From the NCBI GenBank assembly GCA_030695905.1, contig JAUYOL010000020.1, positions 1 through 54,751 on the forward strand: 54,751 nt of DNA. Direction: 5' to 3'. Positions 31,946 through 54,751 of the stretch are shown piece after piece; position 1 is the first letter of the stretch, and every line of letters begins with the position of its first letter. A model generated the notes under the pieces. It had not been told where the DNA came from, did no database searches, and saw only the letters and a program-made list of their open reading frames with translations. The DNA comes from Candidatus Omnitrophota bacterium (GTDB taxonomy: Bacteria; Omnitrophota; Gorgyraeia; 2-01-FULL-45-10). The translations under genes were made by a program, and so were the position numbers.

Positions 31946-32527
31946 ATGGTTAAAGAAAAGATCAAATCTGAAATAAGGGAATGGACCGAATCGATAATAA
32001 TCGCGCTGATATTGGCGCTTCTGATAAGGACGTTCGTCGTGCAGGCTTTTAAGATACCATCAGGATCGATGATACCTACATTTGAGATAGGAGACAGGAT
32101 ATTTGTTAATAAATTTCTGTATGGCGCGCGCATACCTTTTACGAATATAAGGCTTCCGTCGGTAAGGGGGCCGCAAAGAGGCGATATCATAGTTTTTGTT
32201 TCGCCTGAAGCGCCGAAAAGAGATTTTGTAAAAAGGCTTATAGCTACCGCAGGAGAAAAGGTCGAGGTAAAGAATGGCAATATTTATATAGACGGCAAGG
32301 ATACCGATATTCCCGCTTCCATACGCTCAAACTATTATTACAACAGAGGAGATTACGCGAAAGAGGGTGAAGCGATAACCGTTCCAAAGGATTCTCTCTT
32401 TGTATTGGGTGATAACAGCGCGAATTCAAGAGATTCACGCTACTGGGGATTTGTGCCGAAAAATAACCTTATCGGCAAAGCCATGTGTATTTATTGGCCC
32501 ATAAAAAGGATCCGCGCTATAAAATGA
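31946..32527 (+). CDS. lepB: Signal peptidase I
   Basis: A 193-residue membrane serine protease. One N-terminal membrane segment (IIIALILALLIRTFVVQAF) precedes the nucleophile Ser in IPSGSMIPT. The catalytic Lys is in RDFVKRLIA, and GDNSANSRDSRYWGFVP is the conserved box E region. It removes signal peptides of exported proteins, which would include the giant proteins with Ala-x-Ala-type sites. It follows AAGGAAAGG and overlaps pgsA (ATGA). Confidence 0.95.
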   Translation: MVKEKIKSEIREWTESIIIALILALLIRTFVVQAFKIPSGSMIPTFEIGDRIFVNKFLYGARIPFTNIRLPSVRGPQRGDIIVFVSPEAPKRDFVKRLIATAGEKVEVKNGNIYIDGKDTDIPASIRSNYYYNRGDYAKEGEAITVPKDSLFVLGDNSANSRDSRYWGFVPKNNLIGKAMCIYWPIKRIRAIK

Positions 32528-38100: not shown

Positions 38101-41100
38101 AAATAATGATACCACTGGGCGCGGTCAATTGGATCTATCGAAGCATCGTTGATCCAATTAAGCATTTCTTTAATTCGACGTCATGGGACGGTATTTATGT
38201 CGACACGTTGCGAAAGGCGGGTGTGAATTATCGTATATATAATCCCGATGGAAGTTTGAAATGTCAGGGTATCCTTAATAATTCCGGTAAATTTCAGGTA
38301 GTGATAAGGCTGTTCGATTCAAAAAATAATTTCCTGTGGTATGTTAAAAAATCCCATTCATTTCAGGTGGGCCTGTCCGGCCCATTACCGGCTCCGACCT
38401 CTATAAAAAATTTACCCTGGGGCGGCGAATGGTATGAATTTAAGAATGGGGAAGGCAATAGGCGCGCCGAATTTACCATGATTAGTTCTGCCGGTAAATG
38501 GGTGCCTTTGTACAATAAAGAATATGGCCAGCTGATAGTGGTTCATGTGGATTTGGAAAAAGGCTCAGAGGACGCCAAAGAAGATTTTTTTGTTATACGC
38601 CCGGACACATCGTCATCGTCATTGCTTATCGATAAGCAAGTCGGTAAGCTCGGCCTGGCGCAAGAGCACATATTCTACTTTTTAAATCGGAATTCTGTGC
38701 CTGTACCTATGAGACTTGCCTTCCCCGAATCTGTAGAAAATCCCATTACAGCGATGCAAGTTATAGGACTTGTTAAATCCGCGGTTGGTGCCGAAAAAAT
38801 AATCCGCACTGATGGCGCGCATGTTTATAAAAAATCGCAAAGTGTTTGGGCACTTGAACCCGACTTTACAGATGCAGATTACAAGAAAGCGATAGCTAAA
38901 CCTTTTATCCTGCCTGCCGGGAAAAAATACGAACCAAGGGTTTTTACTATGCATAAGTCAAGTGCGTCATTACCGGATTTTCTTATATGCGATCCCGGTA
39001 GCGAAGATATTGTCATAATCGAGATCGGAAGGCATGCAGTCTTATCGACTGCCAGGAAGATGCTAAATGGTTTGAGAGCGTTAAAGCTGGTAGGGCCGAA
39101 GATTTTGGGCGCTCGTAGTGGCATGCCTAAGACCGCTACCTTTTATTCGGAGGAAATAATTCATGGAGAAGATCCCGTGGATTATAAAATTGACGGCAAG
39201 CAGAATACGGCTATGAAAAGCGCGGTCAATACGTTGATAGAGACATCGCGTTTCGAACGGTCGCGTATTAAAAAAGGATATACACGGGATTTTGTGGCGA
39301 AGGCGCAGGGGATCGTTAATCTTGTAGAGGAATCTCACCAATATAGGAAAGACGCCATACCCTTGCCGGCCAATATCAACGTTAGGACAACATTCAGATT
39401 GTATAGTGACGACATTTCCTGTTTTGATGTTGTTTTGAAGTTTGCTAAACAAAAAGGTGGAAGGTACTACCTCAATAAGAACGGTATACAAATTTTAGCG
39501 AAGTCCATTACATTGCAGGAACTTTTTGGCGCGGCAAATCAGCGCCCAAGACCAGCATTGTCTTCACCAGGCAAGCCTTTCCTGGGTGCTTTCCAGAATA
39601 CAGCCATTCCGACCCTTGGGGTTTTGAAACAAAAAGATTTTAATGAAATTGCTTCTGTTTCCAGAGAGAGCCTCGCGGACATGCTGGCATTTTTGAAGAC
39701 TATAGAGTTTGCCACTGATGAAGGGATTGCCCACTTGTTGGATTCCGTTTTTACGCAGGGTCCGCCTGAATATGTAAAAAAGATGAAGGATACATTTTTC
39801 TACATGTTTATTCTTGCCAGAAGTAATTCCGCCTTCAAAGAGTTATTATTGCGATCACTCCAATCTTCAAATCTTGATCTAAAAGAAATAAAATTCGCGC
39901 TATCGGATGCCCTTCCGATAAATTCCGCCAGATACTTTGATGCCAATGCAAATACAGCAATAATCGTTTTAAACCGCGGATTCTTTGATATGGACGAACA
40001 CATTTACATGACCTCCCCGGAATTTAGTTCGGCTGTTTATCATATCCGAGCAGAAAGGATTATGCATGAATTAGCGCATAGCAACCTTCCTGATATGGTT
40101 CCAGGCGATTATAAACCCTCCGAAGAAGAACAAATAATTCAGAGCTTGGACAGGCCCCTGAAAATCGTTACGGATGAAATTGGCATGCAGGATAAGATAA
40201 AAAAGTTGAGGAGAGTATATCCCAAAGCAAAGGAAGCAATGCAGCATTCCGGACATATTTTTGATGCGGCGTTCAGATATAACCAGCAATCAGAGCCTTC
40301 GCTTCTTGCCAAAAGGATCAAGGTCTCTGAAATTCTATATCTTGGGGAAGATGCCGGACTTACAGATCTTACAGTTGACGTAGGGATGGAAGATCTGCCG
40401 GAAATATTATATATACTTGCCACTATAGTAAGGCCGTTTGATGCCTCTGGTGTCAAGGTGCAGCCTTCCGGTGCCGGGCCAGCTACTATTACAGTAATTG
40501 ACCGCATAGGTAACGCCCTCACAGAATATCAGTTTAAAGCCGGTGCGGATGAGTATAAAAGGTTAATTGATAATATAAAATCACGGGTGGATGCCGCAGA
40601 CGAGATAGTCAATAAACACCTTAATTTAACTCTTCATATAGCAGAAGGTGAGGGTGGAGAGGTAAAGATTGAAGGTGAGTCCCTGGCCAGCCGCTATCTT
40701 AGCACAATCAGCAACGGGGAAGATGACCCGGAAGAATTACGCGGTGCTAAAAAATTCGGGCCGGGAGCGGCAAGCAAGGATGACCCCGCGTTTTCTGCTG
40801 TAAAAAGCGCCTATCAGTATAAAGCAGAAATAGAAAATATACATGGTGGCCAGCAGCCGCTTACTATGCGTTTTTCTGAAGCAATGCGTGGAGGCGACTT
40901 GTATGTAGAGGGCATTACAGCGGTAAGGGATGGGCCCGGAACAGCCGCTATCGGGGATTTCAACTTTACAATACGTGCGGATAATACACTATGGCTTCCT
41001 ACGTATCATCCCATAGGTTTAATAGGCTCGGAATCATGGATAAAAAACCATAATAAAGGTATTAGCCAGACATTTCTGCAATGGGTCAATGATTATGCGC

Positions 41101-44100
41101 TGGCCCACAATGTGAATAAAATTATTATTGAAACATATGAGTTGTACGATCTTCACGCGTTTAGAAGATCTTTTGTGGATACAGTCAGGATCGGGGGCAG
41201 GGTTTACGATATAAAAGAATGCGAGCAAGCCGGCATATTTGACAGAGTAACGGCCGGGAGATTGATAGCTTATGATACTGAAAGAGGGCAGAGACTTGGA
41301 AAGATAGAGCTCGAACATGTTAAAGGGCAGGGGCCATCCTACGGGGTGCTATATTCGGAGAGCGAAAAGCTGGCAGTCGGAGATTCTATATGTATAGATA
41401 AATGTATAATACATCTTAATGACAAGCCGGTCGCATTCATCGGGCAGGCAGCCGATGACATATCAGTGGTATTTTCAGGAGCACCTAAACCTTTACAGCA
41501 AAAAGAAGAGCCCGCTCTATTGCCAGGGCCGACCGTAAAAACAGCAAGAAAGATTATGCCTTCCCGTGCAAGCAGGACATTAGTAGAACGCGCAGTAATA
41601 GCCATCCGGAGCATGGGCCATGGAGAAGAAATATTTGACGTTAGGCAAGACGTATTTAGTTTTAAGGACAGGATATTGATGGTAGGTGATGATGCTTGTA
41701 AGTTTGTCAATATATACAAAAAAGTCAAACATGAATGCTCGAAAGAGTTATTCGGTGACTTAGATGCCCTACTGGAAGATGTTCTTGCTGTTTCGAATAA
41801 TGGACCGGTGAGCATGAGTAAGGTAAAGCGGTGGATTTTTAGCTTAAGTAATATTTTGAAGCGCATCAAGATTAATAGGGCCAGGCTGAAATATATCCAA
41901 AATGAGCTAAGCTCGTATTTTGAAACGTATGAATCCGAGATGAATGTTCGCTTCAATACGCTCGATGACGTGGCGAAGCAATTAGATGCAGATATGTCAG
42001 ATTTGGAGAAAAGAAAAGAATCTGCTAAAGCGAAAAAAGAGGACAAGCTCATTGAAGAGTTGATTGGTCTTCAATGGCATATTCAAGCCGAACGCGCAGA
42101 AGTGCAAAAGCAGTTAGATGCTATGGTTGGCATTTATAGGAAAGAAACATCGAAAAAAGACGGCGACCTGTTACTTATCGACAGTCTTATATCGATGTTA
42201 ACTACGGATATATTAAGATTAGAAAATAGGCTTAGATTTGCTAAAGGCGAACCGCGCGCCAAAAAAGTTAGTATCGTTTCGATCTTGAAAAGAATTACCG
42301 CGGCCGATAATGTTTACCTGGATGAAACGCGCCTTCCTGTACTAAAGGTCAGAGGCGAGGATCTCTCTATCCGGTCCGCGCTTAGTAATATTGTCATAAA
42401 TGGGTGTCAGGCCGCAAGAGAGAAAGACGCACAAAAGGCCGGCGTAAAAGTTTCCTTGAGGCAGGATGGCAACTTCGCGGTGATAGAGATCGAAGATAAC
42501 GGAAACGGGATTCCAGATGATAAACTCAAGTTCGACTCACGAACCGGAAGGCTAACGCTATATAATCTAAATAATACTACCAAAAAGCGCGGGACAGGCT
42601 TAGGAACGACAGAGGCATGGTATGTCCTGGTGGAGGATATGGGCGGGACTATCGATATTAAGACAAAGCCCGGCGAAGGAACGAAATTTACGATCCGCCT
42701 GCCCCTTGCTCCTACTTCTAATATCCAACCGATGGGGCCGGGCGCCGCTAATGCAGATAGCCCTGAATTTTCGAATAATGGGGATGATATTTTACTTATC
42801 CCTGCGAAAGTACGAATGAAAGGAATGGAAGGCAGGACATGCAGGATTTTTGTGCCGCTGGAGTACCGACAATACTTACCGGAGTCCTTCCATGTTGCGG
42901 CAGAGGGGAATATACAAGGTGGATACGTTGTGGCAGAGGATAAGAATACAATGAGTGTATATTCCGAAAAAGACTATCGAGAGAGGCTCAAAGAAATCGA
43001 AGGATCGAATGATTATACGCGTTTACAGTTATTTACAACGCGTTCTTTAGCTATTAAAAAATTGAATCCAAAAGGTGAATTTGCCATCCCATCCGCATTG
43101 CTGCATAGCCCCGCGGGTCTCGTAAATAGTTCCATAACATTAGCTATTTACTTGAACTGGGATCCTCAAAGCGCGGCTATTAAGGCAATGATTGAGGAGA
43201 TGTCCGCGGTATTTGACGGGCATAAAATTAAAAACAAAAAATTATTAAGTGCTTTGATCGAGCCGGAAAAGCATCCGGGGCAAAGTAAGATATTGATCCA
43301 CATGGGTAACTATTTCTTTAAAATGCTTCTTCTGGATTATATCGCTACTAACTATCCAAATCTGGATAATTCACGCCTTCACCAATTTATCAATAAAGCG
43401 CAGGCCATATCGGAGAGGGACGCCATATTCAAGAAGCATGAATCAATTTATAAAAGATATATTAAGTTGCGCCCCGCCGTCCATTATTTAAAATGGAATT
43501 TTATTGCCGCACTGCTCGGTAGCCTTATAGCCGATACCGGTGATGCCAAAAATGCTTTTTTGATCGGCAGGCATTTTTCAAAGGATTATTTTGATAGTTT
43601 TAAGGTGGGTAGAAGTATCCCTGTAGCAAAAGCACGAAAAAATGAAAACAGGCCTTTTGCTTATCGCAGGGATATCTCAAAGATCGCGCCCATCATAAGA
43701 CCTTTTATAGATACATCCAAACCGTTACAGGAGATTTTGGAGACAGAGTTATCTCCTACAAATTCTGACAGAATAGGCTGCTCTGCATCAAGCTATACAA
43801 ATGCCGCGCTGGGTGACGCTATCCTGGATTTTGTTGTGACAACTGAAACGTGGGAGAAGTTCGGTTTTAAAGAAAAGGTTATTTTTTATCAAAATGCTCA
43901 CAGTAATCTGGTTAAAGGAGATTTTATCGGAAGTATTATGATGACGATATTGGGTAAGACGAAAGATGAATTAACCGCGGAAGACATTGAGCATGGGCAG
44001 AATCTTTTTGAGTCATTGGTGGCTATAGTCTACAAGTCAAACGGCGGACTCGAAGGCAATGGCCTGGCGAAGGCGCGCGAATTTGTTTTCAAAATGTTCA

Positions 44101-44753
44101 TAGATCATGCCAAGCACCGGCAGGCAGAGACAAAGCCCGCAGAAGAACGCTCGAATAATATTGCGGTCCTGCACAAGCTTTTTCAGGAAGCTAATATATC
44201 TCAAGCCTCGCGAGTATTAATATCAGAGAATTTACTTATAAGTGACGGAAATACTAATGAGTTGGATGAAGCCAGGCTGGCCCTAAAGCCGTTACTGGGG
44301 AGCGGCAAGGTGGCGATATTAAAGCCTGATGAGATACGAAGACATGCCATAAACCGCAGAGAAGACAAGTCAAAATTAGCCATTGTATTGAGCCGCGAAG
44401 ATTTTGAAAACAAAGCTATATGGAATGGTTCTGAAAAAGAGACTTCGCTTAAGGCGAGCCTTATTATCCTGGATGATAGGCTGACCGGCGCCAACTATCT
44501 CTATATAGAAGGGGTGATAGGGCTCGCGTACGCCCTTATGTCCAATAATAAACGGGCGATAAGCGCTTATTACCGGATATTGTCAGGCGCGGCCATAGAT
44601 GATGCGGTATTAAAGCTTCTCGACGATGGCCGTGATAATACTGTGGCATTTGCATTGCGGGCCATATTGAAGTTCAAGCCTACAGAGAAGATGAGTGAAG
44701 AAGAATTTAATAGTTATAGAATAACGATCGAAAGCGCTCTCATAAATGCATAA
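35142..44753 (+). CDS. Giant multidomain protein with signal peptide, methyltransferase and histidine-kinase-type ATPase
   Basis: Complete, 3203 residues, TTG start just after an in-frame TAA at 35130-35132. N-terminus: a basic segment, a hydrophobic stretch and AQDIVWANP, an export-type signal (residues 10-35). Then: SAM methyltransferase-like (about 85-240; ILEVGPGYGIF, RPGGVCIIDTN); long helical stretches; a membrane-type segment (about 877-912); a zinc-protease-like HELAH at 1642-1646; a folded unknown (about 1915-2105); coiled coil (about 2260-2370); and a HATPase domain (about 2377-2527) with N box NIVINGCQAA, G1 DNGNGIP and G2 GTGLGT. Helical C-terminus. Linkers contain GPGAA...PEFSNNG. 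No HisKA phosphoacceptor or receiver domain was recognised. Function unknown; it belongs with the giant genes of this lineage. Confidence 0.93.
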   Translation: MNTQIKPHRKFPLAIRVIAAILIAAFFAQDIVWANPDCLQIQLRAKQDNFKPSFYSQCLLRSTDLMAISRALELLGAEYQEKVNAKFGSNEMAFAYAEVFNTAKGVLRDFDNKKILEVGPGYGIFMHTMKKFSEETGVRLELTGLEKDEAKAKYARDEGKLNVITGDITKAPEQLKNEQFDAVVVRWPYFEIWGQKYILDYIKGCYEMTRPGGVCIIDTNVHYLAARAYSLERICFDAGFDVEGKKSYTDSKFLILRKPQSGRKRIHPVLRVLISGIVSSVQRAAEKSGKKKYGMIDISEINDADSLSDYIDKLEKKSGYGQLLDATRQEKEFLKPLFDLLFKKLESDFEDSGDFVALCKQVLKNSDAYDLRARLNNEDAALFNEFRKLKRKDKDIPVGLYGLLLFYLTANPKPYFRHLYKEIMKARPITELALGRKGISFRTRGDSIVHLYPMNLLHEGPDAVYRKSLNAMVGEKEPHDVRGKPDANDLKIKRAVEIGRRHVATYRRYSSEEREALEKRIANFEKKATVLELRDMKTFLLFSEPGLNIVRPIHAGRTRSAHYLSKRLIDTLKKDDDEDMKLLWILLNFSQGVVDTYEQMMKEEGSPQDIQKKLSGLNERFFELEDTHLLPPEKLKEKLAALMEEDTLIKYKDVFVAAENEEKEVDVLMQATHNVRDRLAIEEMEFAASLLRVLLVKQSENAIMMCRHLLYRYEGLGLHSEADRAYRNLDYLVSTLQAYDYGRLPFEFQEELIFTALAFERWDEVKNELKTLLTGKGYTRNVRVAELEILKNDIITADFISKLMHALHAQKAAATPEKLPIVEDAEKFAIKLLSDYSKNGFSALKEQDIDPDYDTPPGPMPARGQYKGNKGKELKDISAGVCILTSLCAIDYRIALIAGAALVVIGVLGFIDSVAGSPDHILKAIRNTPTFEFPFNGKVFMDYKREAEFDKNSQLRVVLAKGLLETDIFNKMQALIRAVKGSDKQVEIMIPLGAVNWIYRSIVDPIKHFFNSTSWDGIYVDTLRKAGVNYRIYNPDGSLKCQGILNNSGKFQVVIRLFDSKNNFLWYVKKSHSFQVGLSGPLPAPTSIKNLPWGGEWYEFKNGEGNRRAEFTMISSAGKWVPLYNKEYGQLIVVHVDLEKGSEDAKEDFFVIRPDTSSSSLLIDKQVGKLGLAQEHIFYFLNRNSVPVPMRLAFPESVENPITAMQVIGLVKSAVGAEKIIRTDGAHVYKKSQSVWALEPDFTDADYKKAIAKPFILPAGKKYEPRVFTMHKSSASLPDFLICDPGSEDIVIIEIGRHAVLSTARKMLNGLRALKLVGPKILGARSGMPKTATFYSEEIIHGEDPVDYKIDGKQNTAMKSAVNTLIETSRFERSRIKKGYTRDFVAKAQGIVNLVEESHQYRKDAIPLPANINVRTTFRLYSDDISCFDVVLKFAKQKGGRYYLNKNGIQILAKSITLQELFGAANQRPRPALSSPGKPFLGAFQNTAIPTLGVLKQKDFNEIASVSRESLADMLAFLKTIEFATDEGIAHLLDSVFTQGPPEYVKKMKDTFFYMFILARSNSAFKELLLRSLQSSNLDLKEIKFALSDALPINSARYFDANANTAIIVLNRGFFDMDEHIYMTSPEFSSAVYHIRAERIMHELAHSNLPDMVPGDYKPSEEEQIIQSLDRPLKIVTDEIGMQDKIKKLRRVYPKAKEAMQHSGHIFDAAFRYNQQSEPSLLAKRIKVSEILYLGEDAGLTDLTVDVGMEDLPEILYILATIVRPFDASGVKVQPSGAGPATITVIDRIGNALTEYQFKAGADEYKRLIDNIKSRVDAADEIVNKHLNLTLHIAEGEGGEVKIEGESLASRYLSTISNGEDDPEELRGAKKFGPGAASKDDPAFSAVKSAYQYKAEIENIHGGQQPLTMRFSEAMRGGDLYVEGITAVRDGPGTAAIGDFNFTIRADNTLWLPTYHPIGLIGSESWIKNHNKGISQTFLQWVNDYALAHNVNKIIIETYELYDLHAFRRSFVDTVRIGGRVYDIKECEQAGIFDRVTAGRLIAYDTERGQRLGKIELEHVKGQGPSYGVLYSESEKLAVGDSICIDKCIIHLNDKPVAFIGQAADDISVVFSGAPKPLQQKEEPALLPGPTVKTARKIMPSRASRTLVERAVIAIRSMGHGEEIFDVRQDVFSFKDRILMVGDDACKFVNIYKKVKHECSKELFGDLDALLEDVLAVSNNGPVSMSKVKRWIFSLSNILKRIKINRARLKYIQNELSSYFETYESEMNVRFNTLDDVAKQLDADMSDLEKRKESAKAKKEDKLIEELIGLQWHIQAERAEVQKQLDAMVGIYRKETSKKDGDLLLIDSLISMLTTDILRLENRLRFAKGEPRAKKVSIVSILKRITAADNVYLDETRLPVLKVRGEDLSIRSALSNIVINGCQAAREKDAQKAGVKVSLRQDGNFAVIEIEDNGNGIPDDKLKFDSRTGRLTLYNLNNTTKKRGTGLGTTEAWYVLVEDMGGTIDIKTKPGEGTKFTIRLPLAPTSNIQPMGPGAANADSPEFSNNGDDILLIPAKVRMKGMEGRTCRIFVPLEYRQYLPESFHVAAEGNIQGGYVVAEDKNTMSVYSEKDYRERLKEIEGSNDYTRLQLFTTRSLAIKKLNPKGEFAIPSALLHSPAGLVNSSITLAIYLNWDPQSAAIKAMIEEMSAVFDGHKIKNKKLLSALIEPEKHPGQSKILIHMGNYFFKMLLLDYIATNYPNLDNSRLHQFINKAQAISERDAIFKKHESIYKRYIKLRPAVHYLKWNFIAALLGSLIADTGDAKNAFLIGRHFSKDYFDSFKVGRSIPVAKARKNENRPFAYRRDISKIAPIIRPFIDTSKPLQEILETELSPTNSDRIGCSASSYTNAALGDAILDFVVTTETWEKFGFKEKVIFYQNAHSNLVKGDFIGSIMMTILGKTKDELTAEDIEHGQNLFESLVAIVYKSNGGLEGNGLAKAREFVFKMFIDHAKHRQAETKPAEERSNNIAVLHKLFQEANISQASRVLISENLLISDGNTNELDEARLALKPLLGSGKVAILKPDEIRRHAINRREDKSKLAIVLSREDFENKAIWNGSEKETSLKASLIILDDRLTGANYLYIEGVIGLAYALMSNNKRAISAYYRILSGAAIDDAVLKLLDDGRDNTVAFALRAILKFKPTEKMSEEEFNSYRITIESALINA
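42268..42722 (+). other. GHKL/HATPase domain within the giant protein
   Basis: N box near residue 2416, DNGNGIP from residue 2452, GTGLGT from residue 2484, and a final strand GEGTKFTIRLPL. These ATP-lid motifs are intact. Upstream coiled coil could act as a dimerisation helix, but a clear phosphorylatable His motif was not found. Confidence 0.88.
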
Positions 44754-47700
44754 TCAACAAAAAATTACAAGAGACAGAAGGCAAAATTTAAGGCCCGGGC
44801 TAAATGGGGTGGGGGAAACTTCCCCCCGAGTAGTGACCCTCATCCCAACCCGGGCTTTTATAATAAAAATAATATCAGTGATGCTGATAGCGGCGTTTGC
44901 CGCGCAGGATGTGGCGTGGGCGAATCCGGAAGTTTTTGAGCATCGGGCTTCGACGACTACTCTGCAGATCCCGTCTTTCTTCAGCCCCATGGACGCGCGG
45001 ACCGATAAGAATGTTCTCGAAATGACATTGCAATATATACTGAAGACGGTCGGCGATACAGAGCAGTTTAAATATCACCTTACGCCTAAAGTTGCCGGTG
45101 TAATGCTGGACTTCGAGTTTGATAAGGCGCGCAGAGAGGATGAGGACACGATAATCCCCTGCGGTGCCGCAAGCGACCGCTCAACCCGTCTATATGAGGC
45201 GGTTATAGGGTCCGATAATTCGATCAAAGAGTTGCGGCAAGCCAAAAAAGACAGAAGTGATAATGCTGCAGATAAAGGCAAAGTTAGCGCCGCGGTAAAT
45301 CCAATTAAAGAGCTGCCAACCCCAAAGCCCGCAGAACCTTCTGTGAAAATCCCTACAAAAGCCGAGTTTTTTGACATCGTAAATGAAAGAGCCATGAATA
45401 TTATTGCTCTTGCCGGAACTCATTTTATCGGCGGTAAAGCAATGGCACAGAGATCGCTCGATAAAATGATCCTGGATTTTAACAGAGAAACAAAGGCGGG
45501 GTATGTAAGTTCTTATGCGGTTGCCCTTACAAAAGTAGTTTTAGACAGGCACGGCGAAAAATTAAACTTTAACGCTATTATCAAACCTCTGGATGACAAG
45601 TTGCGCAAACATAAAGGGATATTTGTAAGAAAAAACTTACGAAAACACTTATTATGGGCCCTTGAATCCCAGGGTATTTTCGATTCGGATACCATAGAGC
45701 GGTTAAAGGCAGCCGCACAGGGAGGGGATTCCAGGATAAAATCTCTGAAAACTGTGCCTAACAAAACCCTTTCTTTCTTCAAGCGCTTCTGGCGCGATGA
45801 GCGGGGTGAATTATCATTGCCGCGGCTTATTACCAATCGCAGGAATCGCCACAATTTCGATCTTAAGGCAACGGTCAGCTATATCATTCCTTATTTTAAA
45901 GAACATAATAAGTTACCGGCCGAAACAGAACTTTCCAAAGCTCTTGGCCCTACTCAGCCGCTTTTTTCTAAACATATGCCAGAAATATTGGCTGAACTTG
46001 CGAGGCAAATTGAAGAGGAAGGATTTGACCCGGCTCTCCGCCAGGAGATAGGGAAAGCTATAAGCCTGCCTATACCACTCCAAAATGGCACGGATCCGGA
46101 TATAAAGAACATGATAGGGCGTTTAATCGATACGATCATATCTTTGCCTATCAGGAGTGAGGCATGTCTGGATCTTCTTACGGCGGCCATTAAGTTATTT
46201 AAAATAAAATCACCCAACTATGCACAGATACTCAGTTTGATTATTCAGGCACAACATAATTCTCCGACAATGAGTCAGGTAGGCGCTGTATATACTAATC
46301 CGGAGATGGTGAGAACGATAAATCGTATCAACAGGTCTTTTGAAGGATTGAAGAGCATTGTGGCGCAGGCCGGAGGAATAAAACTTCCCCCTGCAATAGC
46401 AAGAGGGAAAAAAGAAAAAGAACTGATTGAAAAGGCTATCGCGGAGCTGGAAGCGCCTGATTCCACAAGCGCAGGACTAATCGGGAAGTATCGGGTTGTT
46501 TCGGATATTTCCTTTATCCCGCACAATGAAAAAGATGTCGACAATGGGCAGATTGTGTTTACAGGTATAAATATAGAAGATCCTACAAGGCAGAAAATCT
46601 CTATTAGTATTGATGCCCAGAGGGCGCCACCGGGACTCTTCAGGCTTTTCCGGAGGACAAAACTAAGGAGAATAGACTGGCCTCTCGAAGATTTCCTGGA
46701 TAAGTTCCGCGGCCAAACCTTTCTTTTAAGCCCCAATCGTTACCATATAAACGGTATAGGCACAAGTAACTGTATTGCCATAGCGTATCCGCTTAAAAAT
46801 GACGATATAGCGTTGTTCCATGAAGTAGCTGAAGCGGCTGATTTGGATGTGTCCGGATACCTTAGAAGGGGCGATCTCGATGCTTATATAAATCGTGTCG
46901 ATAAGAAATACAGGCAAGACCCGGCTATGCTGCAGCATTATGCGTTAAGATTGTTCCAGCGCGAGATGTGGCCTAGGGACGATGGTCTCCTCACGCAGTT
47001 GATAAAAGAGATAGATTTGAACCATGGGGTAAGGCTGAAGAAGAGCGTTATTGTCAAGGGTATGTCGTTAAAAGAAAATGCATTTGCTGCAAGAGAAGCA
47101 TTTGAAGTGGTAGGTAACCAGATTCTTGCCATACTCGTGATCAAGGACAGGAAGGGGCTTGTAAATATAGAAGGCCCTGCTACCGAAGCAATTGAAGATC
47201 GGCTGACCCGCGCGTATAAGTTTATCGCACAACTCGAAAAAGAGGCTGCAGTAAATCCTGCAGGCATTATGACTCTTGATGAGATGATGAGAAGAAAATA
47301 TCACTATTTCATCGAAAACCACATAAAGGATTTGGAGGAATTGCCGAAACTTATAGTAAACGAAAATAAGATGTCTACTTCTCAACGCCAGCTTTTTATT
47401 GGAGATCAAGGCTTGATCCGTGGGGCAATAGATATTTTAAAAGAGCTAAAAGAGGTACTTGAAGTGAGCCTGGAACAGCCGGTACAGGCAACAAAGACAG
47501 TCTCGAATCCCAGGATGAACGGTTTTGTGTATCTGCCGCCGGTAGCAAAGATGTTGAAGGCTTTGTTCGCGGAAATCAGGATATGGTTTGAAGCGCTTTT
47601 TGATTTAGATATAGATGTTTGTAGAAAATTGCAGAATTCGATCGATTGTTTTAACAAGGTCTACATTCTCAATAGTCGGTTTATTGATTTCTTAGTTTTT

Positions 47701-50700
47701 CGTGAGACTACAGTCGAAGCCCTGCCTCAGATCGCGGCCTTTCTCAAGGAAAATAGACTCACAAGCAAGGAAAGCTTAGCGGATCTTGAGTCGAAGCAAC
47801 AGGATGCCAGACGAAATAAAGGCCGGGTGATAATAGATCTGGCAGAATCTATCCGCAAAGCGGACAGATTGGATATCTCCTACATATCACACCTTAAGTG
47901 GCGTCTTGCATCTTTGAAAAAACTATATCGTAGAAGTGCTTACCGGGAAGACCTGAACAATATAAGAAGGCGTGTTGGTATAGAAATAGGATATTGTAAA
48001 TGGGCCCGGGCAGGGATTGCTAAAGAAATACAAAGATTAAATAATTTAGATTTTGAATATCCGTTGCATGGTGAGGAAACGCAAAAGTTACGCGCGCTGA
48101 AAGAACTTGATAAGTGCGAAGAGGCTATCCTGGCAGCGTTATATCTTATCAGAAATAAGATAAACGAATTATCTCCTGAGAACACGACAGGCGCCAGTTC
48201 TTCATCTGCAATAGTTGACCGGCCGAATAATGCGGCAGAAAATAATCTTCACCCTGTTTATTCTTTGCTCAGGCGATTAGGCTATCCTGAAGCAGCTATA
48301 CCTGCTATTGCCAGCGGGCTAACTCAGTTACAGGATAAAATAGCTCAAGCCAATTTGCGGCAGAAATTAACAGCAAAAGATATTACTCGGCACATTTCAG
48401 CGCTGACCGAATTAATGAATCTATTTATGAGCGAAGGCTATTATGATCCCGGGAATCCGCATTCGCTCATTAAGGCATTGGTAAACGGTATCAATAAGGG
48501 AGATATTTTTGCCGAAATAGACCGTTCAATGATTTTTGGAAGACGAAAAGCAGGCCTAAAAAGGATCCTCTCCTCCTGTGTTTCAATATCTCAGTTAGCT
48601 TTGATTATTCTAAGCTTAGCGGGAGTTAATGCCAGAGTCGCTATCGCGCCTGACCACGCATTTATTTTTATACCTTTGGATAAAAATCATGCCTTATTTG
48701 CCGATTTTACCCTTGGCATAGTAACCGTGGTGGATTTATCTCATTACCAGGAAGAAGGCGCGTACTTAGTCTTAAAACCGGAGTTTAGAATTTCTCCCGA
48801 GAATGAAGCTTATGTTCAAGAACGGCTTAAACAAAGAATATCTATAAGGCAAAACGAATTATTGCATTCGTTCTATTTCTCTATTCAAATAACCAATGGT
48901 TATATCTTAATACCTTCTTTATTAATGAATCTGGGAAGTGTTTATTATAAATTGGGTAAATATGCCAAAGCTATTAAAAAATATAAAGAAGCCATTAAAC
49001 TTAATCCGAAGGACGCAGAAATACACTATGACCTGGGAATCGTTTATTATAAATTAGGTAACTACTATGAGGCAACTGTAGAATACGAAAAAGCCGCTGA
49101 TCTTAATCCAAAACATGCCAAAGCCCGCAATAACCTGGGGAATATTCATTATTCATTTGGTAGCTACGATAAGGCTGTCAAAGCATACAAAGATGCCATT
49201 AGTATTAATCCAGGGGAGGTAATGTTTCACAATAATCTGGGGGATGCCTATGCTAAATTAGGCAACTATACCGGGGCCATCGCAGAATTCCAAAAAACCA
49301 TTGAGCTTAATTCGGGCTATGCCGGAGCCTGCTATAATCTAGGAAAGGTTTACTATAAACAAGGAAAATACAATGAGGCAATTAGGGCATGGGCAATGGC
49401 AATAGTTAGTTTGATATTAGAGTTAAGATTTATGAGTGTCGTAAAGGCAGCATTAATAAGACAAAATCCAGAAAGCGCTGTGCCAGCTATAAAGTCAGGG
49501 GTGATAGCCGCACAGCAAAGATTTGCGCGCCAGCAACAAAGGTTCGATGATTTAGCCGATGGCAGGATTCCGGCTCGTGAAGATATGAGTTTTGCAAATG
49601 CGCCGGACCGTTGGGTCCGTTTCGCCTCCGGCCCCAGCCCGACAAAGCTGGAAGAAAAGATAGAAGAGCTTATCGAATTGATTATACCGCTGCCTATCTA
49701 TAATAGAGATATATGTTTGGACCTTCTTGAAGGAGCTTCTAAATTATGCGATAAATATTCGGATGAGCTTACAAAGATACTAAGTCTGATTATCCAGGCA
49801 GAAAATATATTTCCGACCAAAATGCAGATAGAGATTGCCAATGTTAAACGCGGAACGATGGTCAAAATGCGCAGGGCCAGACAGTATTTTGAAAACTTGA
49901 AGATAGTTTTAAACAAAAGACTTAAAAAAGGAGAAAAAGGTGAGGTGGTGGAGTCGCCAAGTCCGGACATAGGAAATCAGCCTGATATACCGACTCTTTT
50001 GCGAAAACCGCAAAAAACTCGCGATGATTGGATAACATTACTAAAAAAGATGGCAAATTTTCTACCCGAAGGTGAAAAACCTACTGTAAGAAATATTATT
50101 AAATTATCCGGAGGGCAACTGCGATATAGCACCGTAACAGGGGTCTTGCGCAGACATAACATTCCTTATGCTGATGTCGGGCTTATAAACGAAAAACTTA
50201 AGGTTCCCGCGCTGCAAAGTTTCGCCGGAGCGCTGCCGCCGCCGAATGCGAAACTCCATCCCGAGCCAGAAGGTACATCGTATCAGGGAGATTTTAATAA
50301 TGATGGCGATGGTTCTGGTGGGATAAAATATAATATCAGTATTCCCGAGATCGGGATAGAGAACTTCGAGGTGCAATGGCCTGATATTAAAAGGACCATG
50401 GAGGAAACAGGGGAATATATTACACCGGAACAGGAAAGAATCGTTTTTCATGCCCTTCATGCTAAGAATCTTACCCTGGATCAAAGGAACGAAATTCGCT
50501 ATTTTATTATTGAGAAATACCGATGGTTGATCGATACAGTTATCATGAAATATGGAATGCACTTCTATGATGAGCAAAGAGTCGCTGATGCCCGGGATGA
50601 AGGGGATTTAGGGATCTTGCGCGCAATGGTCACGTTTGAGCCCGAAAGAGGCAATAGGTTTTCCAGCTACGCTGATAATTGGATACGTAACGCAATCCAA

Positions 50701-53700
50701 AGATCCCCTCTCTTAAGACAATTAATTCCTACGTCGGAATATGCAGAAGAGAAGATGACGAGATATAGGTATGCAAAGCAAAAATTATGGCAAGAACTGG
50801 AGCGTAATCCGACATTGGATGAAATTGCGCGCGAGATGAGGATATCGACAGAAAAAGTGCAGGAGATTGAATCTGACTTGCCAAGAATAAGATCTTTAAA
50901 TATTTCCACTACCGGCCAGAAAAAAAGAGCAACTATGCGCAGGAACCTTGTGCCGGCAAGGGAGGAAGCCATATTAACAGAAGGATCGCTGGAGAATCTC
51001 GAAGACTATTTAGGCAAGCTTGCTCCCCTTGAGGAAAAAGTTATTCGAATGCGTTACGGTTTAGGGGTAGGTCCGGACAGGGGAGTTTCTCATACATTGG
51101 AAGAGATAGGGAAAGCTATAGGCGTAACGAGAGAATGGGTCCGTCGGATTGAGGCTAAGGCGTTATGGAAGATAAGAAGAATGATGCTTGAATCAAGACT
51201 CGCCAATGATATTAATCGGATCGCGGTAAAGCGGGAAGAGGGAAATAATGCAGTTAAAGCGCCTCAAAATGAAACGAGTCCGCGTAAGAAGTACCATCGG
51301 CTTGATCTTGCTGGAACAGTTGAATATATTATTGGTTGTTTCAAAAATGATCCAACGTGTATAAATTTGCCGGGTCCGCTGGCGCTTTCAAAGGTTCTGG
51401 GACCAACGCAACCTGTTTTTTCTAACCAATACGCTAAGATATTAGCCGCGCTTAAAGAGCAAATTGAAACAGAAGGGTTTGATGCGGTATTGCGTGAGCG
51501 AATAAACAAAGCTATCGAAAAAAAGGTTGCCAAAAAGGCAGTTGCTATGCGCGTGACTGATGATCCGGTTTTGCCAGGAGCGCTGCCGCCGCCGAATGCG
51601 AAACTCCATCCCGAGCCCGAAGGTGTATCGTATCAGGGGGATTTTAAGCAATCACCTGTGCAGGAGAAATGGGAAGCCAGCGTAGAAGGATCCGGGACAG
51701 GTACCATAATAGGAAAATTAAGTTTTTCTTCAGGCGAAAAAGAGCTGGGTTACATAACATTACAAATTGAAAAAGAAGGCATCAGTGTGTATAGTTGCAC
51801 CGGCCTTAATGTTATTTTAAAAGGCAATGGCCTGGGAGAAAAGCTATTACTTAGGGGCTTGGAACTGGCCAAGCGAGAAGCGCGCAATAGGAGGTTACAG
51901 CCTAAATGGGCGCTTGTTTATTATACCTACACAGGAAAAAGTGATGATACAAAATTGGAAGCGCTAACGCATATTCTTACGAAATTGGACTTTGCATGCT
52001 ATTCCATAGGACAAGACCAAATAAATGACCCGGGCTTGAGGACATTATTAGCCCGGCATGCAAACCAGGGCTCGGCTAACCGATGCTGGTTTCAGGATCT
52101 GGATAAAATTAGTGAAATCCAGGAAGGCCCGTGGCCGGACCAGCCGCTCAACGGGTTCGGCGCCGTCGGGCCGATAAAGCCGGGGGATGAGGTACCGGAT
52201 TTCTGGCAAGGTCAATGGTCCCGCGTTTCGTCACATTTAGTCGATTCAAATGGGTGGTTTGGCGTTGCGGCGTATCCTTTAGTTGTGCGCAATTTTATTA
52301 TCGGACAGAGCGAGCTGGAAGCAAAAAGACAGAAAAGAAAAGTCAGAATTATTGACTTGGGGGCGGGTGCGAATCTCTACATTGCCAGAAAAATTCATGA
52401 GGAATTTACAAGCGAAAGTCTTGACGCTGAAATCCACGCTTTGGATCCTGCCAGGAAAGAAGATGTAGAGCGGTTATCAACATTACAAAGTGTAATTTAT
52501 CACTCCGGACAAATGGAAAATCCCGCAGGGATAGAACCAAACTCTATGGATATCGCCGTTTCAGCTTTTGCGCTGGACTACACGGACATGCCCGCATCAT
52601 TAAAACAGATTAACCGTATGCTTTCTGATGATGGACGTGCGTTTTTAGTTGTTCATCATCCCGAGTCGGATTCTATTGAACATGTCCGCAGCTATTTAAA
52701 TGATATCAAGAATGCATACAAAAATTTAAATCAAGTATTAGAATTTTTGACCAATAATACAGGAGAGATACCTATATACAGCATAAGGTTCGAGCTGGGT
52801 AGGGTTGTAAATTCAACTTACATTTACCAGTCTCACATCACTCAAATCGTATCCCAGATCGACGATTATATGAGAGGAGAAGAGAATGAACAGGCTAGGG
52901 CAAAGCTGATCGGCGAGATTAGGAAGACCATCGATATTGTCAAAGCCGAGATTATGTCCGGGGACCGCTTGTTATCCAATCTGTTCACGAGTAAGCGGGA
53001 TGTTAAAAGATTTTTTTCCGAAGAAGGTTATGAAGTCGAGGTTTTATTATTGAAAGAAACGAAAGATTATGACGGAGATGGTTATGTCGAAGTTCCGGAA
53101 GCATACGGGATTATCCTTACTAAAAGCGCAAAAATCGATTCTAGCCAGACCGGGCCGTGGCCGGACCAGCCGCTCAATGGTATCGGCGCCGTCGGGCCGA
53201 TAAAGCCTGGTGATGAAGATAGGACATCCCAGAATGTACCGCCTCTGTCCCCGGCTATTAAAAAATCAAGAGAAGCGCTATTAGAAGTTTTCCGTAACGT
53301 TAACCAAATTGGAACGTTGGAAGAAATACGTGCTATGGATCGTTCTGAATTTGCTGAACGGCTAGGATTTAAGAATCTTGGCGATACGAGTGCTCGGCCG
53401 TTCAGAGGTTTCCTAACCTACATTTCCGAGAAAGACTGGATTGAATTTAAAAGATTGAGAAAGAATGTCAAACAGGGAAGAGTGAAAGATGATAGAGAGA
53501 TCTCTTTTTCTCAGTTCAGAATTGATGGGCATGGATTTTATTATGATAAAGCAAGGATCGAAAAATGGTTAGAACGAGAAAGCTTTTCCGCTGGTAAACC
53601 TTTGTTTGTTCATGAATTACTAGAGCAGGCAAGTTTGAAAGCAGGACTGACTTCCGATATGTTCCGCTATTTTAATGACGACAATCTGATGGTGCTAGAA

Positions 53701-54751
53701 GGTGAGCTAAGATTTGCAAGTCTTATGGGAAAAAGAGACTTACAGATTGCTCAAAAAGGAGTTCAGGATAAAATCGAATATGCCGATACTCTTCTCAACA
53801 GTCCTTTTAAATCCAGTTTTTTTAAAATTTTTTCCAGATTTAGTAATAGCAAAGAATCTAGAAAGAGCCTGTTTAGAATCAAGCGTTCATTAGAAAGATT
53901 GCTGAAGAAATCTGGAAGTGAATTGTTTCATCAAACTTCCCTAAGTTTATGGCGTATTGCTGGTGAAAATAGAGACAGCGGCCGTTTCCAAGAATCGCCA
54001 CCCGTCGGTGGCCCGACCTCAGCGCAAGCCAAAAGCGGAGTATCTCAGAATGACACATCCCAAAATAACACGGAGGAGCAGGTCTCGGAGTCACGCCGGG
54101 CCGGTGTGGTTGAGATACGTCATAAAAAGCGCGGAATCCTTTCAGATAAAGATAAGAAATATCGAGATCAGCTTTGCGAGTCTATCTATAGGTCCTTTGT
54201 AAAGGCCGGAGCACAACTATTGGAAAAAGATATAAAAAGATATTCGGATATTGTATCAAATACCCTTGTAAGATATGATGCCGAGTCGCTACAAAGCCTT
54301 GTGGAAAGAGACATATTGACCACAGATGAAATAAATATGATAACAGAGCGCGTATCTTTTGATACAGCCGGCCTGGTCAAAAAGGTTATAACAATAATAG
54401 ACGCCTATAGAAAGGCATCCCTAACTGATAGAGCCAAAGATAAGCTCCTTGCCCATTTCTTTACAATAGAAGAGATCGACAGATTGAAGCATGATTTTCC
54501 TGATCTACAGCCTTCAATCATTCTGCATGCTTGCACACACAATCCCAAAGACCCTCGCGCATTCTTGAGAAACCTGATCAAGACGCAAGATGAGATATCG
54601 AAAGAGCTTGAGTTTAAGGACCTACTGCCTTCAGTCATTCTGCATGCTTGCACAAACAATCCCAAAGACCCTCGCGCATTCTTAAGAAACCTGATCAAAG
54701 CGCAAGCTGAGATATCGAAAGAACCTGAGTTTAAGGACCTACTGCCTTCAG
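44746..54751 (+). CDS. Giant multidomain protein, N-terminal part (3' end outside window)
   Basis: One open frame with no stop from 44746 to the right edge, at least 3335 codons. The start is unresolved. ATG 44746 overlaps the previous stop (ATGCATAA); GTG 44833 would give a conventional-length signal peptide; GTG 44878 and ATG 44881 lie inside it. Signal: RAFIIKIISVMLIAAFAAQD then VAWANPE. By nt position: unknown domain B1 (45856-46062); domain A1 (46108-46260); long helical part; transglutaminase-like segment (about 48500-48780); TPRs (48925-49420); A2 (49645-49800); sigma-70 core (50318-51190); B2 (51301-51516); GNAT (about 51661-52080); SAM methyltransferase (about 52200-52960; IIDLGAGANLY); further helical region; 39-residue repeats from 54496. 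Role unknown. Confidence 0.9.
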   Translation, partial: MHNQQKITRDRRQNLRPGLNGVGETSPRVVTLIPTRAFIIKIISVMLIAAFAAQDVAWANPEVFEHRASTTTLQIPSFFSPMDARTDKNVLEMTLQYILKTVGDTEQFKYHLTPKVAGVMLDFEFDKARREDEDTIIPCGAASDRSTRLYEAVIGSDNSIKELRQAKKDRSDNAADKGKVSAAVNPIKELPTPKPAEPSVKIPTKAEFFDIVNERAMNIIALAGTHFIGGKAMAQRSLDKMILDFNRETKAGYVSSYAVALTKVVLDRHGEKLNFNAIIKPLDDKLRKHKGIFVRKNLRKHLLWALESQGIFDSDTIERLKAAAQGGDSRIKSLKTVPNKTLSFFKRFWRDERGELSLPRLITNRRNRHNFDLKATVSYIIPYFKEHNKLPAETELSKALGPTQPLFSKHMPEILAELARQIEEEGFDPALRQEIGKAISLPIPLQNGTDPDIKNMIGRLIDTIISLPIRSEACLDLLTAAIKLFKIKSPNYAQILSLIIQAQHNSPTMSQVGAVYTNPEMVRTINRINRSFEGLKSIVAQAGGIKLPPAIARGKKEKELIEKAIAELEAPDSTSAGLIGKYRVVSDISFIPHNEKDVDNGQIVFTGINIEDPTRQKISISIDAQRAPPGLFRLFRRTKLRRIDWPLEDFLDKFRGQTFLLSPNRYHINGIGTSNCIAIAYPLKNDDIALFHEVAEAADLDVSGYLRRGDLDAYINRVDKKYRQDPAMLQHYALRLFQREMWPRDDGLLTQLIKEIDLNHGVRLKKSVIVKGMSLKENAFAAREAFEVVGNQILAILVIKDRKGLVNIEGPATEAIEDRLTRAYKFIAQLEKEAAVNPAGIMTLDEMMRRKYHYFIENHIKDLEELPKLIVNENKMSTSQRQLFIGDQGLIRGAIDILKELKEVLEVSLEQPVQATKTVSNPRMNGFVYLPPVAKMLKALFAEIRIWFEALFDLDIDVCRKLQNSIDCFNKVYILNSRFIDFLVFRETTVEALPQIAAFLKENRLTSKESLADLESKQQDARRNKGRVIIDLAESIRKADRLDISYISHLKWRLASLKKLYRRSAYREDLNNIRRRVGIEIGYCKWARAGIAKEIQRLNNLDFEYPLHGEETQKLRALKELDKCEEAILAALYLIRNKINELSPENTTGASSSSAIVDRPNNAAENNLHPVYSLLRRLGYPEAAIPAIASGLTQLQDKIAQANLRQKLTAKDITRHISALTELMNLFMSEGYYDPGNPHSLIKALVNGINKGDIFAEIDRSMIFGRRKAGLKRILSSCVSISQLALIILSLAGVNARVAIAPDHAFIFIPLDKNHALFADFTLGIVTVVDLSHYQEEGAYLVLKPEFRISPENEAYVQERLKQRISIRQNELLHSFYFSIQITNGYILIPSLLMNLGSVYYKLGKYAKAIKKYKEAIKLNPKDAEIHYDLGIVYYKLGNYYEATVEYEKAADLNPKHAKARNNLGNIHYSFGSYDKAVKAYKDAISINPGEVMFHNNLGDAYAKLGNYTGAIAEFQKTIELNSGYAGACYNLGKVYYKQGKYNEAIRAWAMAIVSLILELRFMSVVKAALIRQNPESAVPAIKSGVIAAQQRFARQQQRFDDLADGRIPAREDMSFANAPDRWVRFASGPSPTKLEEKIEELIELIIPLPIYNRDICLDLLEGASKLCDKYSDELTKILSLIIQAENIFPTKMQIEIANVKRGTMVKMRRARQYFENLKIVLNKRLKKGEKGEVVESPSPDIGNQPDIPTLLRKPQKTRDDWITLLKKMANFLPEGEKPTVRNIIKLSGGQLRYSTVTGVLRRHNIPYADVGLINEKLKVPALQSFAGALPPPNAKLHPEPEGTSYQGDFNNDGDGSGGIKYNISIPEIGIENFEVQWPDIKRTMEETGEYITPEQERIVFHALHAKNLTLDQRNEIRYFIIEKYRWLIDTVIMKYGMHFYDEQRVADARDEGDLGILRAMVTFEPERGNRFSSYADNWIRNAIQRSPLLRQLIPTSEYAEEKMTRYRYAKQKLWQELERNPTLDEIAREMRISTEKVQEIESDLPRIRSLNISTTGQKKRATMRRNLVPAREEAILTEGSLENLEDYLGKLAPLEEKVIRMRYGLGVGPDRGVSHTLEEIGKAIGVTREWVRRIEAKALWKIRRMMLESRLANDINRIAVKREEGNNAVKAPQNETSPRKKYHRLDLAGTVEYIIGCFKNDPTCINLPGPLALSKVLGPTQPVFSNQYAKILAALKEQIETEGFDAVLRERINKAIEKKVAKKAVAMRVTDDPVLPGALPPPNAKLHPEPEGVSYQGDFKQSPVQEKWEASVEGSGTGTIIGKLSFSSGEKELGYITLQIEKEGISVYSCTGLNVILKGNGLGEKLLLRGLELAKREARNRRLQPKWALVYYTYTGKSDDTKLEALTHILTKLDFACYSIGQDQINDPGLRTLLARHANQGSANRCWFQDLDKISEIQEGPWPDQPLNGFGAVGPIKPGDEVPDFWQGQWSRVSSHLVDSNGWFGVAAYPLVVRNFIIGQSELEAKRQKRKVRIIDLGAGANLYIARKIHEEFTSESLDAEIHALDPARKEDVERLSTLQSVIYHSGQMENPAGIEPNSMDIAVSAFALDYTDMPASLKQINRMLSDDGRAFLVVHHPESDSIEHVRSYLNDIKNAYKNLNQVLEFLTNNTGEIPIYSIRFELGRVVNSTYIYQSHITQIVSQIDDYMRGEENEQARAKLIGEIRKTIDIVKAEIMSGDRLLSNLFTSKRDVKRFFSEEGYEVEVLLLKETKDYDGDGYVEVPEAYGIILTKSAKIDSSQTGPWPDQPLNGIGAVGPIKPGDEDRTSQNVPPLSPAIKKSREALLEVFRNVNQIGTLEEIRAMDRSEFAERLGFKNLGDTSARPFRGFLTYISEKDWIEFKRLRKNVKQGRVKDDREISFSQFRIDGHGFYYDKARIEKWLERESFSAGKPLFVHELLEQASLKAGLTSDMFRYFNDDNLMVLEGELRFASLMGKRDLQIAQKGVQDKIEYADTLLNSPFKSSFFKIFSRFSNSKESRKSLFRIKRSLERLLKKSGSELFHQTSLSLWRIAGENRDSGRFQESPPVGGPTSAQAKSGVSQNDTSQNNTEEQVSESRRAGVVEIRHKKRGILSDKDKKYRDQLCESIYRSFVKAGAQLLEKDIKRYSDIVSNTLVRYDAESLQSLVERDILTTDEINMITERVSFDTAGLVKKVITIIDAYRKASLTDRAKDKLLAHFFTIEEIDRLKHDFPDLQPSIILHACTHNPKDPRAFLRNLIKTQDEISKELEFKDLLPSVILHACTNNPKDPRAFLRNLIKAQAEISKEPEFKDLLPS
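44793..44861 (+). terminator. Terminator-like nested hairpin at the giant-gene junction
   Basis: GCCCGGG (44793-44799) pairs with CCCGGGC (44849-44855), followed by TTTTAT. Inside, GGGGG and CCCCC flank AAACTT. It would end transcription of the 35142 gene, yet it lies within the open frame of the next gene, so the start of that gene may be downstream of it. Confidence 0.5.
45856..46260 (+). other. Duplicated small domains B1 and A1 in the giant protein
   Basis: B1 (45856-46062) contains ALGPTQPLFS and ARQIEEEGFDPALRQ; it matches B2 at 51301-51516 (VLGPTQPVFS, KEQIETEGFDAVLRE). A1 (46108-46260) contains ACLDLLTAAIKLF and ILSLIIQAQ; it matches A2 at 49645-49800 (ICLDLLEGASKL, ILSLIIQAE). These are diverged internal duplications of unknown folds. 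Confidence 0.8.
48500..48780 (+). other. Transglutaminase-like segment in the giant protein
   Basis: ILSSCVSISQLALIILSLAG gives a candidate Cys, PDHAFIFIPL a candidate His and ALFADFT a candidate Asp, in the order and spacing of transglutaminase-core-2-like domains, followed directly by TPRs as is common for that class. Assignment is by eye. Confidence 0.5.
48925..49420 (+). other. TPR array in the giant protein
   Basis: Five 34-residue tetratricopeptide repeats with the canonical NLGxxYYKLGKYxxAIxxYxxAIxLNP pattern, for example NLGSVYYKLGKYAKAIKKY and DLGIVYYKLGNYYEA. It is a protein-protein interaction scaffold. Confidence 0.92.
50227..50295 (+). repeat. Linker cassette GALPPPNAKLHPEPEG, copy 1
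   Basis: 69 bp nearly identical to 51577-51645. It sits immediately before the sigma-70 core. Confidence 0.88.
50318..51190 (+). other. Sigma-70 core domain embedded in giant protein (copy 2)
   Basis: Homologous along its length to 2841-3710. Region 2 reads FEPERGNRFSSYADNWIR, then NAIQR; region 3 has NPTLDEIAREMRISTEKVQ; region 4 has EEIGKAIGVTREWVRRIEAK. It diverges from copy 1 mainly in regions 2.4 and 3, the promoter-contacting parts, which would predict different DNA preferences if active. Confidence 0.9.
51577..51645 (+). repeat. Linker cassette GALPPPNAKLHPEPEG, copy 2
   Basis: Near-identical to 50227-50295; it sits immediately before the GNAT domain. Confidence 0.88.
52136..52188 (+). 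repeat. Short linker repeat DQPLNGFGAVGPIKP, copy 2
   Basis: Between the GNAT and methyltransferase domains; matches 3901-3953 and 53163-53215. Confidence 0.85.
52201..52960 (+). other. SAM-dependent methyltransferase domain in the giant protein
   Basis: Motif I is VRIIDLGAGANLYIARKI; MDIAVSAFALDY and MLSDDGRAFLVVHHPE follow as motifs II and III of a class I methyltransferase. Substrate unknown. Confidence 0.8.
53163..53215 (+). repeat. Short linker repeat DQPLNGIGAVGPIKP, copy 3
   Basis: Follows the methyltransferase domain; same peptide as 3901-3953. Confidence 0.85.
54496..54751 (+). repeat. 39-residue coding tandem repeat, right end (two units plus part)
   Basis: Units 54496-54612 and 54613-54729, then a partial unit to the edge; period 117 bp. 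The first unit is more diverged (FPDLQPSIILHACT). The array runs off the window and matches the array at 3-215. Confidence 0.92.
54611..54751. repeat. Terminal direct repeat, right copy
   Basis: Identical over 141 bases to 1-141. Length exceeds one 117-bp repeat unit, so it is a 1.2-unit match within the array. Confidence 0.95.

Follow-up and report, generated by a model that had tools for sequence, protein, structure and literature searches.

A predicted Sec signal peptide class at the start of giant mosaic proteins in Omnitrophota

RESULTS

Two giant genes of an Omnitrophota bacterium open with the same signal

The window analyzed here, a stretch of 54,751 nucleotides (nt), is contig C20 of the 1.82-Mb, 43-contig genome of a Candidatus Omnitrophota bacterium, and it carries two giant open frames arranged head to tail. 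The first, P0001 (giant 1), spans positions 35142 to 44753 (3203 amino acids [aa], TTG start), and the second, P0002 (giant 2), runs from 44746 to the window end at 54751 (at least 3335 aa), its first 8 bases lying within the end of giant 1; all features located in the window lie on the + strand. Both begin with an N-terminal segment that recurs on giant proteins throughout the phylum and that is most probably a cleavable Sec signal peptide. We assign a probability of about 0.6 to the reading that these giants are mosaics exported by a dedicated Sec/signal peptidase I signal, with modules that would most likely serve as folded surface or contact material. Such giants are hard to interpret since their bodies share little, and a signal shared across the phylum provides a handle that marks the members of the class.

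In both P0001 and P0002, a basic N-terminal stretch leads into a hydrophobic core, which is followed by the motif AQD(I/V)xWANP. This arrangement, pointed out in the initial annotation, was confirmed by a search with the exact DNA pattern, which matched exactly twice in the 1.82-Mb genome (35223 to 35248 and 44902 to 44927), and by a reversed-pattern control, which matched nowhere in it. The signal peptide of giant 1 is 34 aa long (35142 to 35243), with a predicted cut after WA at 35243. In giant 2 the signal region covers 44746 to 44922, with the core at approximately residues 38 to 52 and a predicted cut after WA at 44922; its start codon is uncertain, and the true one may lie downstream of the annotated ATG. 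The stretch from 44771 to 44850, ahead of this signal, is 77 to 84% similar to the same place before the giants of G266 and L014. The signal of giant 2 is followed by a short domain (44923 to 45270; STLQIP...VIPC in the consensus) that is common to giants of other Omnitrophota. A third giant of the same genome, on contig C32, has an N-terminus with the variant QDLVWA.

Phylum-wide conservation of the signal and its link with giant frames

A 34-column signal profile (A1), built from an alignment of 15 N-termini, matched 127 of 368 Omnitrophota genomes at E ≤ 0.01, and it matched none of 194 genomes from the phylum of G396 (Verrucomicrobia) and none of 200 from the phylum of G391 (Bowmanella). 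Among named genomes, the exact DNA pattern was found in 17 stretches, 8 of them with Omnitrophota titles; in all eight it stands at the start of a frame that reaches the end of the fetched stretch, and the other nine look like chance matches, judged by their context. A slightly looser pattern gave 10 matches in 384 genomes of the phylum, and its reversed control gave none. Six of nine non-Omnitrophota genomes that had been preselected for the pattern showed weak profile matches at E ≤ 0.1, one of them below 0.01. A viral origin was also considered and rejected: the single matching locus in IMG/VR has a frame without a hydrophobic lead and looks like a chance match.

Frame lengths were taken from the 150 phylum matches listed, the total number of matches being larger than 150. 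Of these 150 open frames, 114 are at least 1000 aa long, 72 at least 2000 aa, and 29 at least 5000 aa, with a median of ~1915 aa. The full signal is present at all 16 long-frame loci inspected, among them one of 45,379 aa, although the sets of 20 and 16 stretches were picked as profile matches and therefore carry the signal by construction. The 45,379-aa frame (locus L140, G071:C1 near 1156748) is the longest and lies in a single-contig genome. Long frames are opened by the signal in many independent genomes, several of which consist of 1 to 10 contigs. That the signal is real, conserved phylum-wide, and tied to giant proteins is thus well supported by these sequence comparisons.

The segment has the features of a cleavable Sec signal peptide

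Fifty-two distinct signals (E < 1e-3, model end of at least 24, deduplicated with a 35-residue key) were examined around the predicted cut site. Alanine occupies −1 in 52/52 and an aromatic residue −2 in 51/52; residue −3 is A, V, S, T, L, I, or G in every signal, and proline is never found at +1. The layout is that of a Sec/signal peptidase I substrate, with a basic n-region, a hydrophobic h-region, and a polar c-region. None of the 52 has a twin-arginine translocation (Tat) motif, a lipobox with Cys at +1, or a YSIRK-type pattern. No Pfam or NCBIfam signal family matched in five N-termini, Pfam searched at E values up to 10 yielding two unrelated weak rows.

Relative entropy is high through WA and still 2.0 to 2.8 bits over the three positions that follow (often NPD, NPE, or QGG); beyond these it drops to ~1 or below. 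Alignments of the more distant profile matches often stop at model position 26, which is the A of WA. Net charge averages +2.8 ahead of the core and −0.6 behind it, an asymmetry that predicts the mature part to lie outside the membrane. A signal peptidase I gene, lepB, is located in the window itself (31946 to 32527, with a Peptidase_S26 match from 31973 to 32497) and gives the only Peptidase_S26 match of the genome; the signal peptidase I family is encoded in all 19 genomes of the family.

Ordinary signals were taken from a 289-kb sample of the same genome, in which 75 of 236 frames of at least 100 aa have a signal-like start by a crude in-house rule. The c-region motif [DN]xx[WY]A occurs in none of these 75 N-termini, and profile A1 has no match in the sample at E < 1e-3; the two sample frames of at least 1000 aa were counted among the 75 signal-like frames only.

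We therefore propose a signal composed of a basic n-region, a core of the form (W/I)I(R/K)xI(A/S)xILxxxF, and a c-region QDIVWA; the genome's single signal peptidase I would cleave it behind WA. A cleavable Sec signal class of this kind, reserved for Omnitrophota giants, appears highly probable from the sequence evidence. The signal would carry the giant chain across the inner membrane. The cut-site rule, the charge asymmetry, the drop in conservation a few residues after WA, the phylum-wide link with giants, and LepB give good support to the earlier suggestion of an export signal at the N-terminus, and export is the best reading of the signal that we can offer.

Behind the signal the giants share little and carry cytoplasmic-type modules

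Two alignments of ten giants each revealed almost nothing in common beyond the signal. An all-against-all comparison separated two classes, one sharing ~550 aa behind the signal and the other only ~40 to 130 aa; in the latter, similar modules are scattered at different places. Cytoplasmic-type Pfam families, found in many of the giants, include methyltransferases, HATPase, radical SAM with B12-binding, GGDEF with PAS, cytidylate kinase, glucosamine-6-phosphate isomerase, pseudouridine synthase, MraZ, a SecA fragment, sigma-70, nuclease, and glycogen debranching. Some giants have few families (none in L085, one weak match in L080); the scan covered L075 up to its last 359 residues, and L067 and L079 in shortened form as well. 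The SecA fragment, a piece of the export motor within a giant protein, covers residues 1488 to 1736 of L078 and matches only from profile position 158 on.

In giant 1, a methyltransferase-like domain (P0001 residues 111 to 219; 35472 to 35798) follows directly behind the signal. Its Pfam match (E = 0.002) is under the cut-off and its PDB match is weak (E = 4.7e-4), but its motif I is readable, as ILEVGPGYG. Modeling the structure of this region from the single sequence gave a mean predicted local distance difference test score of 45.6, too poor for a fold search. Further along lies a clear HATPase_c domain (residues 2408 to 2523; 42363 to 42710; Pfam E = 2.9e-17) with N, G1, and G2 boxes. Between the two is a hydrophobic stretch of ~40 residues (879 to 918; 37776 to 37895) in which one or two membrane passages are possible. 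This stretch decides the side on which the HATPase lies, since a single crossing could return it to the cytoplasm. P0001 also contains a metallopeptidase-like motif of the HExxH type, HELAH, at residue 1642 (40065 to 40079); giant sequences totaling 87,252 residues hold 8 HExxH motifs, versus 1.8 expected.

The probable 3′ part of giant 2 is a frame at the other end of the window, P0003 (3 to 5009; 1668 aa). The contig ends overlap exactly over 141 bp (1 to 141 equal 54611 to 54751), a sequence absent elsewhere in the genome, and the same 39-aa (117-bp) tandem repeat is present at both ends (54488 to 54751, continuing at 1 to 216). By coordinates, the two frames join in phase across the overlap into 4957 aa. 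Because of the unique overlap, the shared repeat, and the in-phase join, P0002 and P0003 are probably halves of one 4,957-aa gene.

Giant 2 contains a TPR array (48919 to 49390, limits approximate) and a sigma-70 module (P0002 residues 1860 to 2145; 50323 to 51180) whose regions 2, 3, and 4 are clear in Pfam (residues 1922 to 2144) and which is similar to primary sigma factors, both from the PDB and from related genomes. A second copy of the module, 60% identical to the first, lies in P0003 (2844 to 3689), and further long frames in genomes of the family contain sigma pieces too. Between the two copies, the ratio of nonsynonymous to synonymous substitution rates (dN/dS) is ~0.21, with a dS of 1.29 that is near saturation. 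P0002 further has a degenerate methyltransferase-like segment (residues 2527 to 2646; 52324 to 52683; Pfam E = 0.005). P0003 carries a nitroreductase domain (999 to 1457) and two GNAT stretches, the best from 2511 to 2765. Of the domains named in the initial annotation, HATPase_c and sigma-70 are thus clear and the methyltransferase is weak in Pfam; GNAT belongs to P0003, no match to it being among the 25 Pfam families, of 26, that were listed for P0002 itself.

Sidedness and state of the modules

Sidedness was estimated by a simple hydropathy count in 13 giants with a placed domain. Between the signal and the first cytoplasmic-type domain, six giants have no hydrophobic segment, four an even number, and three an odd number; by this crude topology, the domain lies outside in 10 of the 13. 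Domains that require S-adenosylmethionine, ATP, or RNA polymerase would then sit where these are not expected, which makes the giants a sharp puzzle. Their median cysteine content, 0.5%, has no control comparison and was given no weight.

Catalytic hallmarks were scored by eye against known catalytic motifs. Radical-SAM cysteines are kept in 3/3 cases, although their spacing is longer in one; methyltransferase motif I is kept in 5/7 and the full set of HATPase boxes in 3/5. Degraded hallmarks comprise a kinase P-loop with Lys changed to Arg, KGDEF in place of GGDEF, an altered isomerase site, and the SecA fragment. For the sigma module, the dN/dS value speaks against the idea that the passengers are pure inactive junk, and the degenerate hallmarks in other modules speak for partial decay.

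Linker repeats flank modules of giant 2

Three pairs of near-identical repeats lie in the linkers of giant 2. Copies of a 78-nt repeat (50220 to 50297 and 51570 to 51647; 91% identical) flank the first sigma module; those of a 72-nt repeat (52119 to 52190 and 53145 to 53216, with a further copy at ~3890 to 3948) flank the methyltransferase-like segment; and those of a 119-nt repeat in P0003 (270 to 388 and 2217 to 2335; 98% identical) flank GNAT plus nitroreductases. Mobile palindromic elements were rejected as an explanation: single-strand folding of four stretches was no better than that of shuffles, and the 72-nt repeat is present only on contig C20 among the 19 family genomes. The arrangement suggests that modules of giant 2 may have been duplicated or exchanged through the linkers. 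Behind the signal, the genes are mosaics of modules from cytoplasmic families (sigma-70, SAM methyltransferases, HATPase, radical SAM, and enzymes of nucleotides and sugars), set between linker repeats in the case of giant 2.

The contig as a whole closes on itself yet carries recA, alaS, hisD, trpE, lepA, and lepB. Two readings fit this closure: the assembly looped at the tandem repeat, or the contig is a circle of 54.6 kb, which would be very unusual.

DISCUSSION

We favor the reading that Omnitrophota giants are module mosaics exported by their own Sec signal. The giant chains would most likely be used at the surface or in contacts, as folded material that faces partner or prey cells, and some modules would still be catalytic while others have lost this ability; on this question of use, we consider the odds roughly even. 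Several observations weigh against the reading as a whole. Profile A1 has no match in 241 of the 368 Omnitrophota genomes, and 36 of the 150 listed matches lie in frames shorter than 1000 aa, partly at contig ends; many of the shorter matched frames may end there. The link between signal and giants is not total, since one 3678-aa giant in the 289-kb sample of the same genome starts with a signal that looks ordinary (FSNIALA) and is not matched by the profile. In 3 of the 13 giants used for the topology count, the domain is preceded by an odd number of hydrophobic segments. Finally, the conserved signal may in part reflect common descent of the N-terminus, because the giants of one class share ~550 aa behind it and the others ~40 to 130.

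Delivery into another cell, raised in the initial annotation alongside an unusual compartment, is a bold but possible reading for modules that are active enzymes. In its fullest form, exported giants would enter the cytoplasm of partner or prey cells, where the sigma, methyltransferase, GNAT, and ATPase modules would find their cofactors. Many modules do keep catalytic hallmarks and the sigma copies are under constraint; in addition, Velamenicoccus archaeovorus, a predatory member of the Omnitrophota, is reportedly in open cytoplasmic contact with its victims (PMC13153191), and its giant open reading frame (ORF) peptides are reportedly threefold up in attached cells (PMC10066038). Neither a delivery route nor a receptor domain was found, however, and several modules look inactive (the P-loop Arg, KGDEF, the SecA fragment, and the altered isomerase site), so that we regard this explanation as unlikely. 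A pattern in which some but not all hallmarks are kept fits captured surface modules at least as well as active effectors. Less likely still is a private export class in which the QDIVWA signal exports chains as long as tens of thousands of residues, and in which captured modules, among them sigma factors capable of binding RNA polymerase, work within the cells of partners or prey.

The remaining alternatives concern the N-terminus and the frames. A membrane anchor that is retained and leaves the rest of the chain cytoplasmic, which the initial annotation had named as the finding that would overturn export, would suit passengers of cytoplasmic type. The charge distribution around the core predicts the opposite orientation, though, and the strict −3/−1 pattern in all 52 signals is unexpected for an anchor; internal hydrophobic segments could still return parts of some proteins to the cytoplasm, and as a general explanation the retained anchor seems very improbable. 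The same charge-based topology evidence would equally allow an uncleaved signal anchor, with the N-terminus staying in the membrane and the giant chain hanging outside, but the invariant Ala at −1 and the polar QD of the c-region point to cleavage and leave this variant improbable. An artefact of assembly or reading frame can hardly account for the data: the closure of the contig at 141 bp despite recA, alaS, lepA, and lepB means that the P0002-P0003 join is possibly wrong, yet long frames begin with this signal in many genomes independent of one another, including ones of few contigs, and the sigma copies have a low dN/dS. Export as mosaic surface or contact material is the explanation that we retain. 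It predicts that the giants leave the cytoplasm, and the signal names an exact mature N-terminus that can be checked in existing proteome data.

The signal looks like YSIRK or the extended autotransporter signals in its role, and it is unrelated to them in sequence. YSIRK/GXXS is a conserved motif within the Sec signal peptide that has been reported to mark a class of Gram-positive surface proteins for special export (PMC5962339). The likeness lies in a signal-borne motif that marks one protein class. The motif and its place differ, conservation in Omnitrophota being found mainly in the core and in the c-region beside the cut, and the marked proteins are giants rather than Gram-positive surface proteins. 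The extended signal peptide region (ESPR) of large autotransporters and two-partner-secreted proteins is a semi-conserved element reported to slow export (PMC5422565), and it too is found on very large exported proteins. What is conserved in the ESPR is an extension added N-terminally to a normal signal, whereas in Omnitrophota it is the core and c-region. As for a partner of the ESPR type, no barrel family is among the Pfam families listed for the giants, some of these lists ending at 25 families, and no search aimed at a barrel or TpsB was made.

Proteins of more than 20,000 aa have been described as unlikely to have a predicted signal peptide (PMC11573180). The literature search, which covered work other than preprints, returned no paper on four spellings of the motif and none describing such a signal in its title or the start of its abstract. 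Giant ORFs in Omnitrophota have already been reported (Seymour et al. 2023, PMC10066038; PMC12057145), and those of Seymour et al. come from the same phylum and are the same kind of giant frame as those described here. What is added to them is the shared signal, together with the mosaic of cytoplasmic-type modules that follows it.
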